A stretch of DNA of 64,000 nt. Origin: Bordetella petrii. GTDB lineage: Bacteria; Pseudomonadota; Gammaproteobacteria; Burkholderiales; Burkholderiaceae_B. The stretch spans positions 1,807,623 to 1,871,622 of the forward strand of contig NZ_JAFMZZ010000001.1 of NCBI RefSeq assembly GCF_017356245.1. Direction: 5' to 3'. Under the pieces are notes generated by a model. The model worked only from the letters and a program-made list of their open reading frames with translations, was not told the DNA's origin and did no database searches. Made by a program: the position numbers and the translations under genes. Shown one piece after another: positions 19,660-54,396 of this stretch (within the stretch, counting starts at the first letter, position 1; each line of letters opens with the position of its first letter).

Positions 19660-19740
19660 ATGGTGCTACCTTAAGGACGATCCGGTGATTTCCTGGCTAT
19701 TGGTCTTATGCACCTGTGGATATTGCGTTTTGGGGTTTGC

Positions 19741-19910
19741 GTTCTAGCCCCGTCCCGCGTCGTGCGGGCCAGCGGTGCCGGCGCACGTGCGTCGGGCTCG
19801 GGCGCAACCAGGCGCCCTCGGCCTGCTGCGCAGGCTGCCCCGCCGCCCAACGCGCCGACACCGCTGGCCCGGACGACGCGGGACTGCGATAGTTGAATTC
19901 GAACCGCCGC
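19741..19910 (+). repeat. Family B long-stem repeat, copy B1
   Basis: A 29-bp stem is formed by 19754-19782 and 19854-19882 (27 of 29 paired) around a 71-nt core containing GTGCGTCGGGCTCGGGCGC and smaller inner hairpins (GGCGCC; CCTGCTGCGCAGG). Outside the stem are conserved flanks: GTTCTAGCCCCGT on the left and TTGAATTCGAACCGCCGC on the right. A second full copy in opposite orientation lies at 44461-44627. Confidence 0.85.
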
Positions 19911-19946
19911 TCAGCACCCGTATCGCAGGATCGTCCAGTTTATCCA

Positions 19947-20037
19947 GGTGTCTGACTCCCGTAGGGTGTCAGACACCGAAGTGTGCCGCGATTGTCTCAA
20001 TAGCACGGTGTCTGACACCCTGCGGGAGTCAGATACC
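19947..20037. repeat. Family A double-hairpin repeat, copy A3
   Basis: Hairpin 1 at 19947-19977 (GGTGTCTGAC / GTCAGACACC) and hairpin 2 at 20007-20037 (GGTGTCTGAC / GTCAGATACC) flank a 29-nt spacer with GATTGTCTCAA. It lies 46 bp past the stop of the NlpE-like gene, which is on the minus strand, and 36 bp from family B copy B1. Confidence 0.92.
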
Positions 20038-20083
20038 TGCCATCACACCCGCCGTTCGACCGCTGAGCGGGGGCGCGTGCCCG

Positions 20084-20821
20084 TCAAAGGCACTTCGGGG
20101 CGGGCTGGCCCGACAGCTCGTCGATGGCATCCAGGTCGGGCTGGCGCGTCAGGCTGTAGTTCAGGTTGGGCGATTTGCCCAGCACCGAGCGCACGCGCAG
20201 CACGTTGTTGGCGGCCACCACGAATTCGACGCGCTGGTTGCCGTCGGCGTCGGCCAGCAGCACGCGCGGGGGGTGTTCGGCGGTGGCGTCCCAGCAGCCC
20301 TGTTCGGCGCTGGGTTTGCCCAGGTTGCCGGCGCTGTCCAGGAACGCGGTACGGCTGCGCCAGCGGCCATTGGGCGCCAGGGTCAGCGTGATGCGCTGCG
20401 CCGCGCATTGCGGCGACGGCGTCAGGCAGGGCAGGGTGCCCATGTAGGTCTGGGCCTGCGGCACCAGCGCGTGGGCGGCCGGCGAGGCGCTGCCGGCGGC
20501 TTCGGCCGCGGCATTGGCGCTGCTTTCAGAGGCTTTCGCGGCCGCGGCGTCTTCGGCGTCGGACCTGCCGCGGGACTGGCCCGGCGGCGGCGCCTTCAGT
20601 TCAATTTGCAGCTGCGAGGGCGCGCGCACCACTTGCCGATAGCCGGCCCCTTCGCCCTGGTACTGCGCGTCGGTGGTCGTGCTGGCCGCCGGCGGGTTGT
20701 AGTAGCCCGCGCTGCGATGCTGGGCACAGCCGGCCACCAGCAGCGCGATACCCGCCAGCGCGGCCGCGGTCAGGGTCGGGGATCTGCGGCGGGGCGCCTG
20801 GGAAAGCACGGGAGCGGGCAT
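20084..20821 (-). CDS. Lipoprotein with NlpE-like domain
   Basis: A 245-residue lipoprotein: basic N-terminus, hydrophobic stretch and lipobox LLVAGC give a lipidated Cys at about residue 32, so it is membrane-anchored and faces the periplasm. Residues 35-115 are a low-complexity Ala/Ser-rich linker. From about residue 122 the sequence TYMGTLPCLT...QRITLTLAPNGRW resembles the N-terminal domain of NlpE/CutF copper-homeostasis lipoproteins, but the CxxC metal motif of E. coli NlpE is absent. Envelope stress sensing is possible; function is not proven. It is divergent from pilD. Confidence 0.75.
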   Translation of the reverse strand: MPAPVLSQAPRRRSPTLTAAALAGIALLVAGCAQHRSAGYYNPPAASTTTDAQYQGEGAGYRQVVRAPSQLQIELKAPPPGQSRGRSDAEDAAAAKASESSANAAAEAAGSASPAAHALVPQAQTYMGTLPCLTPSPQCAAQRITLTLAPNGRWRSRTAFLDSAGNLGKPSAEQGCWDATAEHPPRVLLADADGNQRVEFVVAANNVLRVRSVLGKSPNLNYSLTRQPDLDAIDELSGQPAPKCL

Positions 20822-41891: not shown

Positions 41892-42845
41892 ATGCGCAGA
41901 TCCACTTTCTGGACCCTGGGCCTGCTGCTGTTGCTGGCGCTGCTTCCGGCCATCACGGCGGCGCTGGGCCTGGACTTCTATGTGTCGGTGGCGCGCCGCA
42001 TGCTGATCTACGCGCTGGCCGCCACCAGCCTGAACCTGATCCTGGGCTACGGCGGCATGGTGGCGCTGGGGCACGCCGCGTTTTTCGGGGCCGGCGCCTA
42101 TGTGGTCGGCATCCTGGACGCGGCCGGCATCCACGCGGCGCTGCTGGCCTGGCCGGCGGCGGCGGCGGTGGCCGGGGGGCTGGCGCTGCTGATCGGCGCC
42201 GTGTCGCTGCGCACGCGCGGCGTGTACTTCATCATGATCACCCTGGCGTTCGCGCAGATGGTGTACTACCTGTTCATCTCGCTGCGCCAGTACGGCGGCG
42301 AAGACGGCCTGAACCTGTCCGGGTACTCGCTGCTGCCGGGCATCGACCTGGCCGACAGCACCAGCTTTTATTACCTGGTGCTGGCACTGTTCGCCGCGCT
42401 GATGTGGGTGTTCGGCCGCCTGGTCGACTCGCGCTTCGGCACGGCCCTGCAGGGCATCCGCGAAAACGAGTCGCGCATGGAGGCCCTGGGCTATCCGGTC
42501 TACCGGTTGAAGCTGGCCGCCTTCGTGCTCAGTGGCGCGGCCGCCGGGCTGGCGGGGGCGCTGCTGGCCAACCACAACCTGTTCATCTCGCCCAGCCTGA
42601 TGCACTGGACACAGTCGGCCAACCTGCTGGTAATGGTGCTGGTGGGCGGCATCGGCCTGCGCTATGGCGGGGTGGCCGGCGCAATACTGATGCTGGCGCT
42701 CGAAGAGGCGTTGCGCATGTGGACGGAATACTGGCACCTGCCGCTGGGCATCCTGCTGCTGTGCGTGGTGTTCGGCGCGCCGCGCGGCGTGGCCGGGCTG
42801 GTGGGGCCATGGTTTGCCGGCGCTGCGCGCGGGGGGCGGCCATGA
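41892..42845 (+). CDS. ABC permease, LivM type
   Basis: A 317-residue second channel subunit with about ten hydrophobic segments, including LNLILGYGGMVALGHAAFFGAGAY near the N-terminus (LivM signature) and ALQGIRENESRMEALGYPVYR, the coupling loop. Its stop overlaps the ATPase start (ATGA). Confidence 0.93.
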   Translation: MRRSTFWTLGLLLLLALLPAITAALGLDFYVSVARRMLIYALAATSLNLILGYGGMVALGHAAFFGAGAYVVGILDAAGIHAALLAWPAAAAVAGGLALLIGAVSLRTRGVYFIMITLAFAQMVYYLFISLRQYGGEDGLNLSGYSLLPGIDLADSTSFYYLVLALFAALMWVFGRLVDSRFGTALQGIRENESRMEALGYPVYRLKLAAFVLSGAAAGLAGALLANHNLFISPSLMHWTQSANLLVMVLVGGIGLRYGGVAGAILMLALEEALRMWTEYWHLPLGILLLCVVFGAPRGVAGLVGPWFAGAARGGRP

Positions 42846-43639
42846 CCGCGGCTTCCCCCGCCGCCGGCACGCCCGCCCTGCGGGCCGAAGGACTGGTGCG
42901 CCGCTTCGGCGCGCTGGTGGCCACCGACCACGTATCCCTGACACTTGCGCCGGGCGAGATCCACGCCCTGATCGGCCCCAACGGCGCAGGCAAGTCGACC
43001 CTCATCCACCTGCTGTCCGGCACGCTGGCCGCCGACGAGGGCAGGCTGGCGCTGGGCGGCGACGACATCACCCGGCTGAACGCGCACCAGCGCGTGGCGG
43101 CCGGGTTGTCGCGCTCGTACCAGGTCACCAATATCTTCAAGTCGTTCAGCGTGCGCGACAACCTGCTGCTGGCCGCGCAGGCGCACGCCGGCAGCAGCTT
43201 CCGCTACTGGAAGCCGCGCGCGGCCGACGCGGTGCTGCACGACACGGCGCACGCGCTGGCACAACAATGCGCCATCGATGCCAGCCTGCTCGACCGCCCG
43301 GCCGGCACCTTGCCGCACGGCGAGCAGCGCAAGCTGGAATTCGCCCTGGCCCTGGCGGCGCGGCCCGGCGTGCTGCTGCTGGACGAACCCATGGCAGGCA
43401 TGGGGCCCGACGAAACCCTGCGCCTGACCGAGCTGATCGAGTCGCTGCGCGGGCAGGCCGCCATGCTGCTGGTCGAGCACGACATGCAGGCCGTGTTCCG
43501 TCTGGCCGACCGCATTTCGGTGCTGGTGTACGGGCGCATCATCGCCACCGGCACGCCGGCCGAAATCCGCGCCAACCCGGCCGTGCGCCAGGCCTATCTG
43601 GGCGAAGACGAGGCCGCCACGGAGCCCACGACATGTTGA
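42842..43639 (+). CDS. ABC ATPase, LivG type
   Basis: A 265-residue nucleotide-binding subunit: Walker A GPNGAGKST, Q-loop region RSYQVTNIF, signature LPHGEQRKLEFALAL, Walker B VLLLDEPMAGMGPDE and switch His in LLVEHDM. The signature helix starts LPHGEQ where LSGGEQ is usual, as in many LivG proteins. Its last 7 bp overlap the next ATPase gene. Confidence 0.94.
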   Translation: MTAASPAAGTPALRAEGLVRRFGALVATDHVSLTLAPGEIHALIGPNGAGKSTLIHLLSGTLAADEGRLALGGDDITRLNAHQRVAAGLSRSYQVTNIFKSFSVRDNLLLAAQAHAGSSFRYWKPRAADAVLHDTAHALAQQCAIDASLLDRPAGTLPHGEQRKLEFALALAARPGVLLLDEPMAGMGPDETLRLTELIESLRGQAAMLLVEHDMQAVFRLADRISVLVYGRIIATGTPAEIRANPAVRQAYLGEDEAATEPTTC

Positions 43640-44337
43640 GCATGCAGGCGGTGCAAAGCGGGTACGGCGCCAGCCAGGTGCTGTTCGGCGTCGACCTGGA
43701 CATCGGCGCCGGCCAGGTGGTGACACTGCTGGGCCGCAACGGCATGGGCAAGAGCACACTGCTGCGCACGCTGTTCGGCCAGCTGCCGCTGCGCGGCGGC
43801 GCCATCCGCTTTGCCGGGCAGGACATCGGCGGCTGGACGCCCGACCGCATTGCGCGCGCCGGGCTGGCCATTGTGCCCGAGGGGCGGCAGTGCTTTCCCA
43901 ACCTGACCGTGCGCGAGCACCTGACCGCCTTCACGGCCGTCCGCAACCCCGACATCGCCCGGCCCTGGACGGTAGAGCGGGTGCTGGAACTGTTTCCGCG
44001 CCTGGGCGAGCGCGCCCGCAATATGGGCAACCAGCTGTCGGGCGGCGAGCAGCAGATGCTGGCAATCGGCCGCGCCCTGGTCACCAACCCGCGCCTGCTG
44101 GTGCTGGACGAAGCCACCGAGGGCCTGGCGCCGCTGGTGCGCGAAGAAATCTGGTCATGCCTGGCCACCCTGCGCGCCGCGGGGCAGACCATCCTGGTCA
44201 TCGACAAATACGTCGAGCGCCTGCTGGCCCTGGCCGACCGCCACGTCATCCTCGAGCGCGGCCGAACCGTCTGGAGCGGCGATTCCGCCGCGCTGGACGC
44301 CGACCGCGGCCTGTGGGAGCGTTACCTGGGGGTATAA
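43633..44337 (+). CDS. ABC ATPase, LivF type
   Basis: A 234-residue partner ATPase: Walker A GRNGMGKST, signature LSGGEQQMLAIGRAL, Walker B LLVLDEATEGLAP. The switch-loop position after Walker B reads LVIDKYVERL where LivF proteins usually have LVEQ, so the catalytic His is not in its normal place, a known feature of this subfamily. It is the last importer gene; family A repeat A7 begins 24 bp after its stop. Confidence 0.93.
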   Translation: MLSMQAVQSGYGASQVLFGVDLDIGAGQVVTLLGRNGMGKSTLLRTLFGQLPLRGGAIRFAGQDIGGWTPDRIARAGLAIVPEGRQCFPNLTVREHLTAFTAVRNPDIARPWTVERVLELFPRLGERARNMGNQLSGGEQQMLAIGRALVTNPRLLVLDEATEGLAPLVREEIWSCLATLRAAGQTILVIDKYVERLLALADRHVILERGRTVWSGDSAALDADRGLWERYLGV

Positions 44338-44360
44338 CTCGCGCGCCGGCAACCTTGGCA

Positions 44361-44445
44361 GGTGTCTGACTCCCGCAGGGTGTCAGACACCGAAGTCTGC
44401 AACGACTGTCTCAACAGCACGGGGTCTGGCTGCGGAGCCAGACCC
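44361..44445. repeat. Family A double-hairpin repeat, copy A7
   Basis: Hairpin 1 at 44361-44391 (GGTGTCTGAC / GTCAGACACC), 29-nt spacer with GACTGTCTCAACAGCAC, and a shorter hairpin 2 at 44421-44445 (GGGTCTGGC / GCCAGACCC). It begins 24 bp past the livF-type stop. Confidence 0.92.
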
Positions 44446-44460
44446 GTGACAGGGCATGGG

Positions 44461-44627
44461 CGGCGGTTCGATTCACTGACCGAGTCCCGCGTCGTCCGGG
44501 CGGGTGGGGGCGGCGCGTTGGGCGGCGGGGAAGTCTGCGCAGCAGACCGAGGGCGCCTGCATGCGCCCGAGCCCGACGCACGTGCGCCGCCCCCACCCGC
44601 CCGGACGACGCGGGACGGGCCAGGAAC
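44461..44627 (-). repeat. Family B long-stem repeat, copy B2
   Basis: Arms 44486-44514 and 44586-44614 pair perfectly over 29 bp around a 71-nt core that shares GTGCGTCGGGCTCGGGCGC and the CTGCTGCGCAG inner hairpin with B1. Compared with B1, five stem pairs differ and all five remain Watson-Crick because both arms changed. Flanks CGGTTCGATTCACTGACCGA and CGTCCCGCG are also shared. Confidence 0.9.
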
Positions 44628-44675
44628 ACAACCCACCCCACCCAGCGCAACCCCCCCAGTACAAACCCGCATTCC

Positions 44676-44718
44676 TTGCGCACCCCCCGCTTGCGGTATA
44701 TAGTTGAAACCTAAACTA
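44676..44718 (+). promoter_or_regulatory. Promoter and MarR-type operator of the 2-aminobenzoyl-CoA-like operon
   Basis: TTGCGC (44676-44681), a 17-bp spacer and TATAGT (44699-44704) make a plausible sigma-70 promoter. The box TAGTTGAAACCTAAACTA at 44701-44718 overlaps the -10 and ends 54 bp before the first gene, which suits repression. Its twin is at 39589-39606. Confidence 0.65.
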
Positions 44719-54240: not shown

Positions 54241-54307
54241 TGGCCGAACACAATGGCGAACGAGCGACAGCAGGGCCAGACAGGTGCCACGGTCAGACAG
54301 GCAGACA

Positions 54308-54396
54308 GGTGTCTGACTCCCGCAGGGTGTCAGACACCGAAGCGCGCAGAGGCTGCCTGACCTGCACGATGTCAGGCACCTGCGGCGCCCGACACC
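54308..54396. repeat. Family A double-hairpin repeat, copy A8
   Basis: Hairpin 1 at 54308-54338 is perfect (GGTGTCTGAC / GTCAGACACC); hairpin 2 at 54368-54396 is imperfect. The spacer keeps GAAGCGCGCAGAGGCTG as in A1. It ends 34 bp from the hemL stop on the minus strand. Confidence 0.9.

Follow-up and report, generated by a model that had tools for sequence, protein, structure and literature searches.

Two copies of an intergenic hairpin element, B1 and B2, lie in the stretch of Bordetella petrii DNA analysed here (64,000 nt of contig NZ_JAFMZZ010000001.1, positions 1,807,623 to 1,871,622; the window), and they may belong to a family of RNA modules dispersed through the genomes of environmental Bordetella and their relatives. 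The original prediction had described B1 on the plus strand and B2 on the minus strand as sharing a core and flanks, and both were located at the window positions it gave, 19741-19910 and 44461-44627. Each is built of a 33-bp stem that encloses a 67-nt core, and each follows its upstream gene on the proper strand, the functional strand being the window minus strand for B1 and the plus strand for B2. Read on the minus strand, a gene of 245 aa (20084-20821), whose sole protein match is a sub-threshold NlpE, ends with its stop 199 nt from the B1 stem. The 5' arm of the stem (19852-19884) is then followed by the conserved core (19785-19851), which folding and the family model resolve into a three-way junction with two small hairpins and a GNA triloop, and by the copy-specific 3' arm of 33 nt (19752-19784), both arms being assigned from sequence and folding. 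Downstream of the hairpin come a box that reads ..CTAGAAC (19741-19751), recognised by comparison with the family consensus GGCTCAAGAACCCAA, and a C-rich, G-poor tail (19680-19740), delimited from the sequence and from the family-wide excess of C over G. On the plus strand, an open reading frame (ORF) for an ABC-transporter ATPase (42814-44337; ABC_tran in its second half, start uncertain) reads into B2 and stops 146 nt before the stem. Here sequence and folding place the 5' arm at 44484-44516, the core with its three-way junction at 44517-44583 and the 3' arm at 44584-44616, and the sequence places the downstream box (..CCAGGAAC) and the C-rich, G-poor tail at 44617-44690. Homology with relatives restarts inside this tail, at 44659-44671 in the nearest ones.

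The stem had been given as 29 bp, with 29/29 pairs in B2 and 27/29 in B1. The pairing stood and the length did not, since the stem extends to 33 bp, with 33/33 Watson-Crick pairs in B2 and 31/33 in B1, which carries two mismatches. Similarly, five pairs had been reported to change between the copies with a matching complement. Four of them are indeed Watson-Crick in both copies; the fifth is a mismatch in B1 that reads G-U on the minus strand, and a sixth differing position is a plain mismatch in B1. Both copies fold far better than shuffled sequences (z of -6.2 and -6.9 on the two strands of B1, and of -8.5 on the plus strand of B2), and the minimum free energy structure of the B1 minus strand alone pairs the head differently from the three-way-junction model of the family. 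A third copy, B3, which the prediction had mentioned, was not found in the window by R1, a covariance model of the core plus the inner six stem pairs, whose best match beyond B1 and B2 reached 17.8 bits (E 0.029).

Outside the window, many more copies were found, so the doubt that attaches to a family of only two members, which the original prediction had raised, falls away. R1 matches 19 times in the B1/B2 genome (G000), and a whole-genome blastn with B1 gave 38 matches at 23 distinct places, 9 of them near full-length at at least 89% identity (40 of the 203 candidates scored). All nine genomes of the genus carry R1 matches, from 9 to 44 each. With stricter filters, R1 matched 9 of the 121 family genomes, in 5 of 43 genera, and across the order, with strict filters and few candidates scored per genome, it matched 3 of 399 genomes, none of which lies outside the window's own family. 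Blastn with B1 over 200 family genomes matched 22, many of them weakly. A pattern scan of named genomes gave 106 stretches, and the 80 that were listed come from Bordetella petrii, B. ansorpii, B. genomosp. 2, 7 and 13, Bordetella sp. BOR01, Paracandidimonas soli and Mesopusillimonas faecipullorum. Several apparent half-copies in G000 stop at single Ns; they are probably assembly joins and were excluded as real truncations.

For the analysis of the stem, elements were picked by a core-only profile to avoid choosing them by their pairing, in DNA that had been fetched partly with stem-containing queries (including R1 with its inner six pairs). The 352 profile hits gave, after removal of 142 duplicates or hits with short flanks or N, a main set of 210 unique elements with full flanks. 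The main counts use this set, as an earlier one chosen by inverted repeats (223 found, 183 unique, 171 used) was biased. A copy-specific stem is present in 206 of the 210, with a median score of 29 against 6 when the right arms were swapped between copies; the four that fall below a score of 17 are L117, with a stem further out, L026, with its right half lost, and L249 and L256, with no clear stem. The 206 elements represent 165 orthologous groups and are not all independent. What is held in these stems is their length, 169 of the 206 measuring 31-34 bp (33 bp in 62, 32 in 45, 34 in 38 and 31 in 24), and their complementarity, with 6433 of 6680 pairs being Watson-Crick (96.3%). Their sequence is free: at 85% identity the arms form 149 clusters, and two copies taken at random have arms that are 47% identical (median).

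That the pairing itself is kept, as had been predicted, is borne out by covariation. Among 26 gapless relatives, selected for equal length and best stem position, changes on both sides occurred in 29 of 54 pairs against 11.4 +/- 2.0 in shuffles (0/500 as high), and 97.4% of cells were paired against 38-46% when the structure was slid along the alignment. The head, formed by two small hairpins on the three-way junction, shows covariation in 24 of 27 pairs over 115 copies, in a model-fitted alignment where helix 2 is paired in just 78% of cells. A stem of free sequence whose pairing and length are kept suggests a structured RNA. Separately, many B. ansorpii stems (L147-L166, L036-L037) have in common an internal loop of two mismatches close to the head, where CGCGCC stands opposite GTCACG. 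On the functional strand the two mismatches are a G-U and a G-A, and the loop could possibly be functional. Counted from the head, pairing drops at stem position 7 (0.75) and at position 9 (0.86).

The two strands of the stem are not equivalent. Counting one stem per arm cluster, and taking as minus the minus strand of the search orientation, the mismatches that read G-U number 109 on minus and 14 on plus (p = 2e-19), and the purine-purine mismatches 47 and 9. The minus strand also has the more stable fold in 178 of the 206 elements, and on it the P4 loop is G-N-A in 191 of the 206 cores when read as a motif and in 157 of the 171 elements of the first set when found by hairpin search. Most simply, the mismatch bias reflects selection for pairing on one strand, and we infer that the selected strand is RNA. 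However, single-stranded DNA likewise tolerates or favours G-T mismatches and GNA triloops. This counts for the main rival explanation, in which the element would be a present or past non-autonomous mobile element, with a folded single strand of DNA that a recombinase or transposase recognises at the head and the AAGAAC box, and with an inverted pair of elements as the mobile unit.

The comparison of orthologous sites indicates how the stems change. We found 42 copy pairs from different loci with homologous flanks on both sides, 33 of them independent, and 23 of these were compared by column at flank identities of 84-97%; eight were left out for unequal stem length and two for flank identity under 84%. 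The stem differences in the 23 pairs comprise 66 double Watson-Crick changes, 30 single changes and 5 others. Divergence is 11.4% in stems, 20.9% in the adjacent flanks and 6.0% in cores, and the uncompensated singles amount to 30 of 1508 stem bases (2.0%), the flank and core values covering all changed sites, with loops not counted apart. Unpaired substitutions in the stem are thus rarer than changes in its surroundings, and the refuting condition of the original prediction, stem substitutions left unpaired at the rate of the loops, does not refute selection on structure. The B1 ortholog in G123 fits in this series with 6 double, 2 single and 1 other difference. The double changes have a transition to transversion ratio of 34:32, close to that of the flanks (157:139), and because this ratio looks neutral, copying from arm to arm fits better than a route only through G-U intermediates. 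We infer that the paired changes arise largely by such copying (template switching) and would then be filtered by selection for pairing. As a separate observation, after the first head hairpin of L026, the G000 copy at 2001-2110 of its locus, the sequence by eye turns back into a reverse complement of the head and resembles a footprint of template switching.

The neutral-looking ratio and the excess of doubles over singles count as well for a purely mutational homogenisation, in which functionless palindromes would be kept perfect by template-switch copying between their arms at replication; template switching has in fact been proposed to create and maintain RNA hairpins (PMC8794818). Strand-blind copying, however, does not give the strong mismatch bias of the stems (though the head lacks it), and it is opposed by the held stem length, by cores that change less than the flanks, and by double changes that are hardly clustered (14 adjacent vs 10.8 expected). 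We regard homogenisation by itself as quite improbable. The original prediction had offered selection on a hairpin or template-switch repair as two options, and the data point to both.

Gene context supports a location at 3' ends. The gene upstream of a single element on the functional strand points toward it in 58 cases and away from it in 24 (p = 2e-4), and on the other side the counts are 51 to 35. When one element per orthologous group is taken (165), the singles give 48 to 21 (p = 0.0016), and the paired elements 35 to 23, with 39 to 21 on the other side. Gaps that hold a single element are convergent in 38 and divergent in 9 of 94, and those of paired elements in 29 and 3 of 85; in the same DNA, gaps without an element are convergent in 32 and divergent in 30 of 168. 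After the stem, the functional strand carries a CTCAAGAAC-like box (with the GGCTCAAGAACCCAA-like consensus), with an exact AAGAAC within 20 nt in 108 of the 206 elements. After the box comes a tail in which C exceeds G in 201 of the 206 (161 of 165 by orthologous group), against 112 of 206 on the upstream side. Control gene 3' regions without an element show C above G in 172, 189 and 226 of 371 at 10-60, 60-110 and 80-130 nt, and a second control set in 82 to 116 of 190 over four windows out to 250 nt; over all these control windows the share is 43-61%. A C-rich, G-poor stretch, a feature of Rho-dependent terminators, is thus present.

A GC-rich hairpin at gene 3' ends could also be taken for an ordinary intrinsic (Rho-independent) terminator that has spread through the genome. 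A run of T (at least 5 T in the 8 bases directly after the stem) is found after 0 of the 206 stems on the functional strand and after 3 on the opposite one, and a terminator scan finds none at B1 or B2. Without a U-tract in any of the 206 elements, we rejected this explanation as extremely unlikely.

Neighbouring elements are arranged mostly as inverted pairs: 48 neighbour pairs are '+-', 3 are '--' and none is '-+', with a median '+-' gap of 181 nt, and in 37 of the 48 inverted pairs a GT-type is joined with a GC-type stem base. These hetero-pairs favour the mobile-element explanation, and so do the ends of the element, as local alignments among the copies of the B1/B2 genome stop at recurrent limits of ~180 bp, or ~333 bp in a recent subgroup. 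Occupancy of sites favours it too. The counterpart of B2 is absent from the syntenic gap of five relatives (G123, G171, G156, G081 and G053), and at the B1 locus R1 detects an element in just one of eight relatives, G123; presence and absence can be seen at these gaps, which are too diverged for a target-site duplication to be read. On the other side, no match to the Y1 transposase (PF01797), which was found in 5 of 14 genomes searched, occurs in G000, G103, G015 or G068, all of which have many copies, nor in G006, G010 or G196. R1 has no match in five RAYT loci, and phage, plasmid and viral collections gave no match to the element at the sensitivity used. Besides, many copies sit at orthologous sites in different species (the 42 pairs), and neither the 3'-end bias nor the C-rich tail is predicted by mobility. 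On balance, we consider a present or past mobile element rather unlikely, while keeping it as the main rival.

The gaps around B1 and B2 hold other features. In G156, G081 and G053, the counterpart of window 44342-44660, between the ABC-transporter gene and the gene that follows, contains what by eye appears to be a small thioredoxin-like ORF; the B1/B2 genome and G123 have repeats there instead, the B1/B2 genome also having B2. A second palindromic repeat (GTGTCTGACTCCC..GGGTGTCAGACACC) adjoins B1 and B2 and is seen at window 19945-20042, 44356-44430 and 54306-54375, among other places; in G171, it stands alone at the B1 locus. In four of the five RAYT loci (L102, L104, L105 and L106), a loose version of its motif lies close to the RAYT gene, and this second repeat may be the RAYT-linked Bor/REP repeat of the genus.

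A stem of held length and free sequence under a conserved head would also suit small RNAs or precursors of double-stranded RNA, in which RNase III, for example, would cut the variable stem of ~33 bp into duplexes that are specific to each copy and act on other transcripts, and the independence of strand choice from the neighbouring genes agrees with such a role. In the ~1.8 Mb of fetched DNA, which is less than whole genomes, no target was seen: 13 arms match at at least 40 bits against 1 shuffled arm, and the places behind these 13 arms, the strongest listed, are unmasked copies of the element (interrupted by N or at contig ends, or not detected by the core profile), while the fourteenth arm has a match of 19 bases. 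Furthermore, a fixed target would oppose the free drift of stems that is seen at orthologous sites, and no promoter was found, with no sigma-70-like sequence at B1 or B2. This role seems improbable to us.

The reading we favour, with a probability of about one half, is that of a dispersed 3'-end RNA module, located mostly at gene 3' ends in Bordetella petrii, B. ansorpii and their relatives. Transcription of the upstream gene would read through into the element, the C-rich tail would allow Rho loading and termination, exonucleases would trim the transcript back to the long stem, and the stem that remains would protect the mRNA 3' end. Because the head is conserved and the length is held, a trans-acting factor that grips or measures the stem is suggested. 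About three turns of A-form RNA correspond to ~33 bp. More tentatively, the family may represent a new class of structured RNA in bacteria in which a protein, or the RNA's own head, measures a sequence-free stem of ~33 bp, while arm-to-arm copying of the DNA diversifies the stem, and length, head and functional strand are selected.

Several observations weigh against a 3'-end module fed by read-through. Paired elements show only a weak co-directional trend for the upstream gene (48 to 32, p = 0.09), and on their other side the gene reads inward in 55 against 26, so that for this transcript it is the far hairpin that is 'sense'. Where an antisense gene is the only one that reads inward, the strand bias is still present (24 to 3), and therefore read-through from the neighbour is not the whole story; yet a sigma-70-like promoter, searched with a loose pattern, was seen in 0 of 90 strands of the pair gaps. 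The gene calls come from our own codon-usage heuristic, which overlooked the ABC-transporter ORF before B2. Additionally, the bias does not extend to the head, with G-U on plus in 32 and on minus in 18, a count on the model-fitted alignment that leaves out one P4 pair, G-U (87) or G-C (28) on plus, nor to the innermost six stem pairs (10 on plus vs 5 on minus, fitted alignment). Finally, a plain exonuclease block requires neither a conserved head nor a held length, and RNase III, which is described to cut a perfect duplex (PMC9927376), may cleave the long stem instead of leaving it as protection.

The functional strand, the fixed length, the 3'-end location, the tail and the paired arrangement were not part of the original prediction. 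Together they point to an unrecognised 3'-end module or a factor that measures double-stranded RNA in Bordetella and its relatives. If the stem is indeed measured, the family would constitute a new 3'-end or duplex-RNA system and also a natural laboratory for evolution by template switching. Long perfect stems are hard to square with stepwise compensation, and the 149 stem clusters and the orthologous pairs offer a direct measure of how paired changes arise and of which strand selection sees.

As the original prediction had not recognised a named family, we compared the element with known ones. In the window, no Rfam family matches at gathering score. Over nine loci at E<=1 there are four weak matches and nothing convincing at the element: mir-3151 (30.6 bits, against a cut-off of 83) coincides in part with an element, whereas BTH_s1 and mir-5728 fall elsewhere, as does a cspA-like cold-shock leader (RF01766; L074 2690-3053, 71.1 bits, just under its cut-off of 78). 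A search of the open-access literature, with subscription papers outside its scope, brought up no title or abstract that describes the hairpin element, nor do the repeat, stem-loop and noncoding passages of the B. petrii genome paper (PMC2572626) mention one. Integron attC sites have paired RYYYAAC/GTTRRRY boxes. The conserved GTTCTTG box of the element does not, by eye, read as GTTRRRY.

The closest likeness in arrangement is with REP and BIME sequences, which are also dispersed intergenic hairpins that form inverted dimers and frequent hetero-dimers, and for which roles in mRNA stabilisation and transcription termination have been hypothesised, as described in PMC3733652. REPs are described there as palindromes of 20-40 bp, GTAG- or CGTC-tagged, with stems of 8-9 bp in the CGTC families; in contrast, the present element has ~165 bp, a copy-specific stem of mostly 31-34 bp, a three-way-junction head and a C-rich tail. 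A RAYT-mobilised REP/BIME was rejected, as size and stem differ and no association with RAYT was seen. The Bor repeats of Bordetellae (Petrillo 2006, PMC1590033) are likewise repeated stem-loops near coding regions, but they are described as 26-30 bp long and REP-like, and the element is set apart from them by this description and not letter by letter. The GTGTCTGACACC repeats beside B1 and B2 look more Bor-like than the hairpin element does. BRE repeats (beta-proteobacterial repeat element; Hot 2011, PMC3110155) resemble the element in being mostly intergenic, GC-rich and present in many Bordetella copies, and they occur within the bprJ small RNA region. As described, they have ~90 bp, are often in tandem, and in Table 2 of that paper 56 of 105 repeats belong to Comamonadaceae, whereas the element is larger, is mostly single or in inverted pairs (3 of 51 neighbour pairs are tandem) and, under the strict filters of the order-wide search, was matched only in the window's own family. 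Taken together, the hairpin element appears to belong neither to Rfam families nor to RAYT/REP, and to be unlike Bor and BRE as described.

In function, the order of gene, hairpin, C-rich tail and no U-run resembles Rho-terminated transcripts that are processed back to a stem-loop, such as galETKM, with its C-rich unstructured 3' region, where exonucleases are described to leave a stable 3' end at the stem-loop (PMC9927376). Those are individual sites, whereas the present repeat family combines a conserved head with a stem whose sequence is free and whose length is held, and the use of Rho would be by analogy. In evolution, the element resembles the hairpins of PMC8794818, in which compensatory stem changes are explained by copying; the hairpins described there belong to rRNA and microRNA genes, while the present case is a bacterial repeat family with many stems to compare at orthologous sites.
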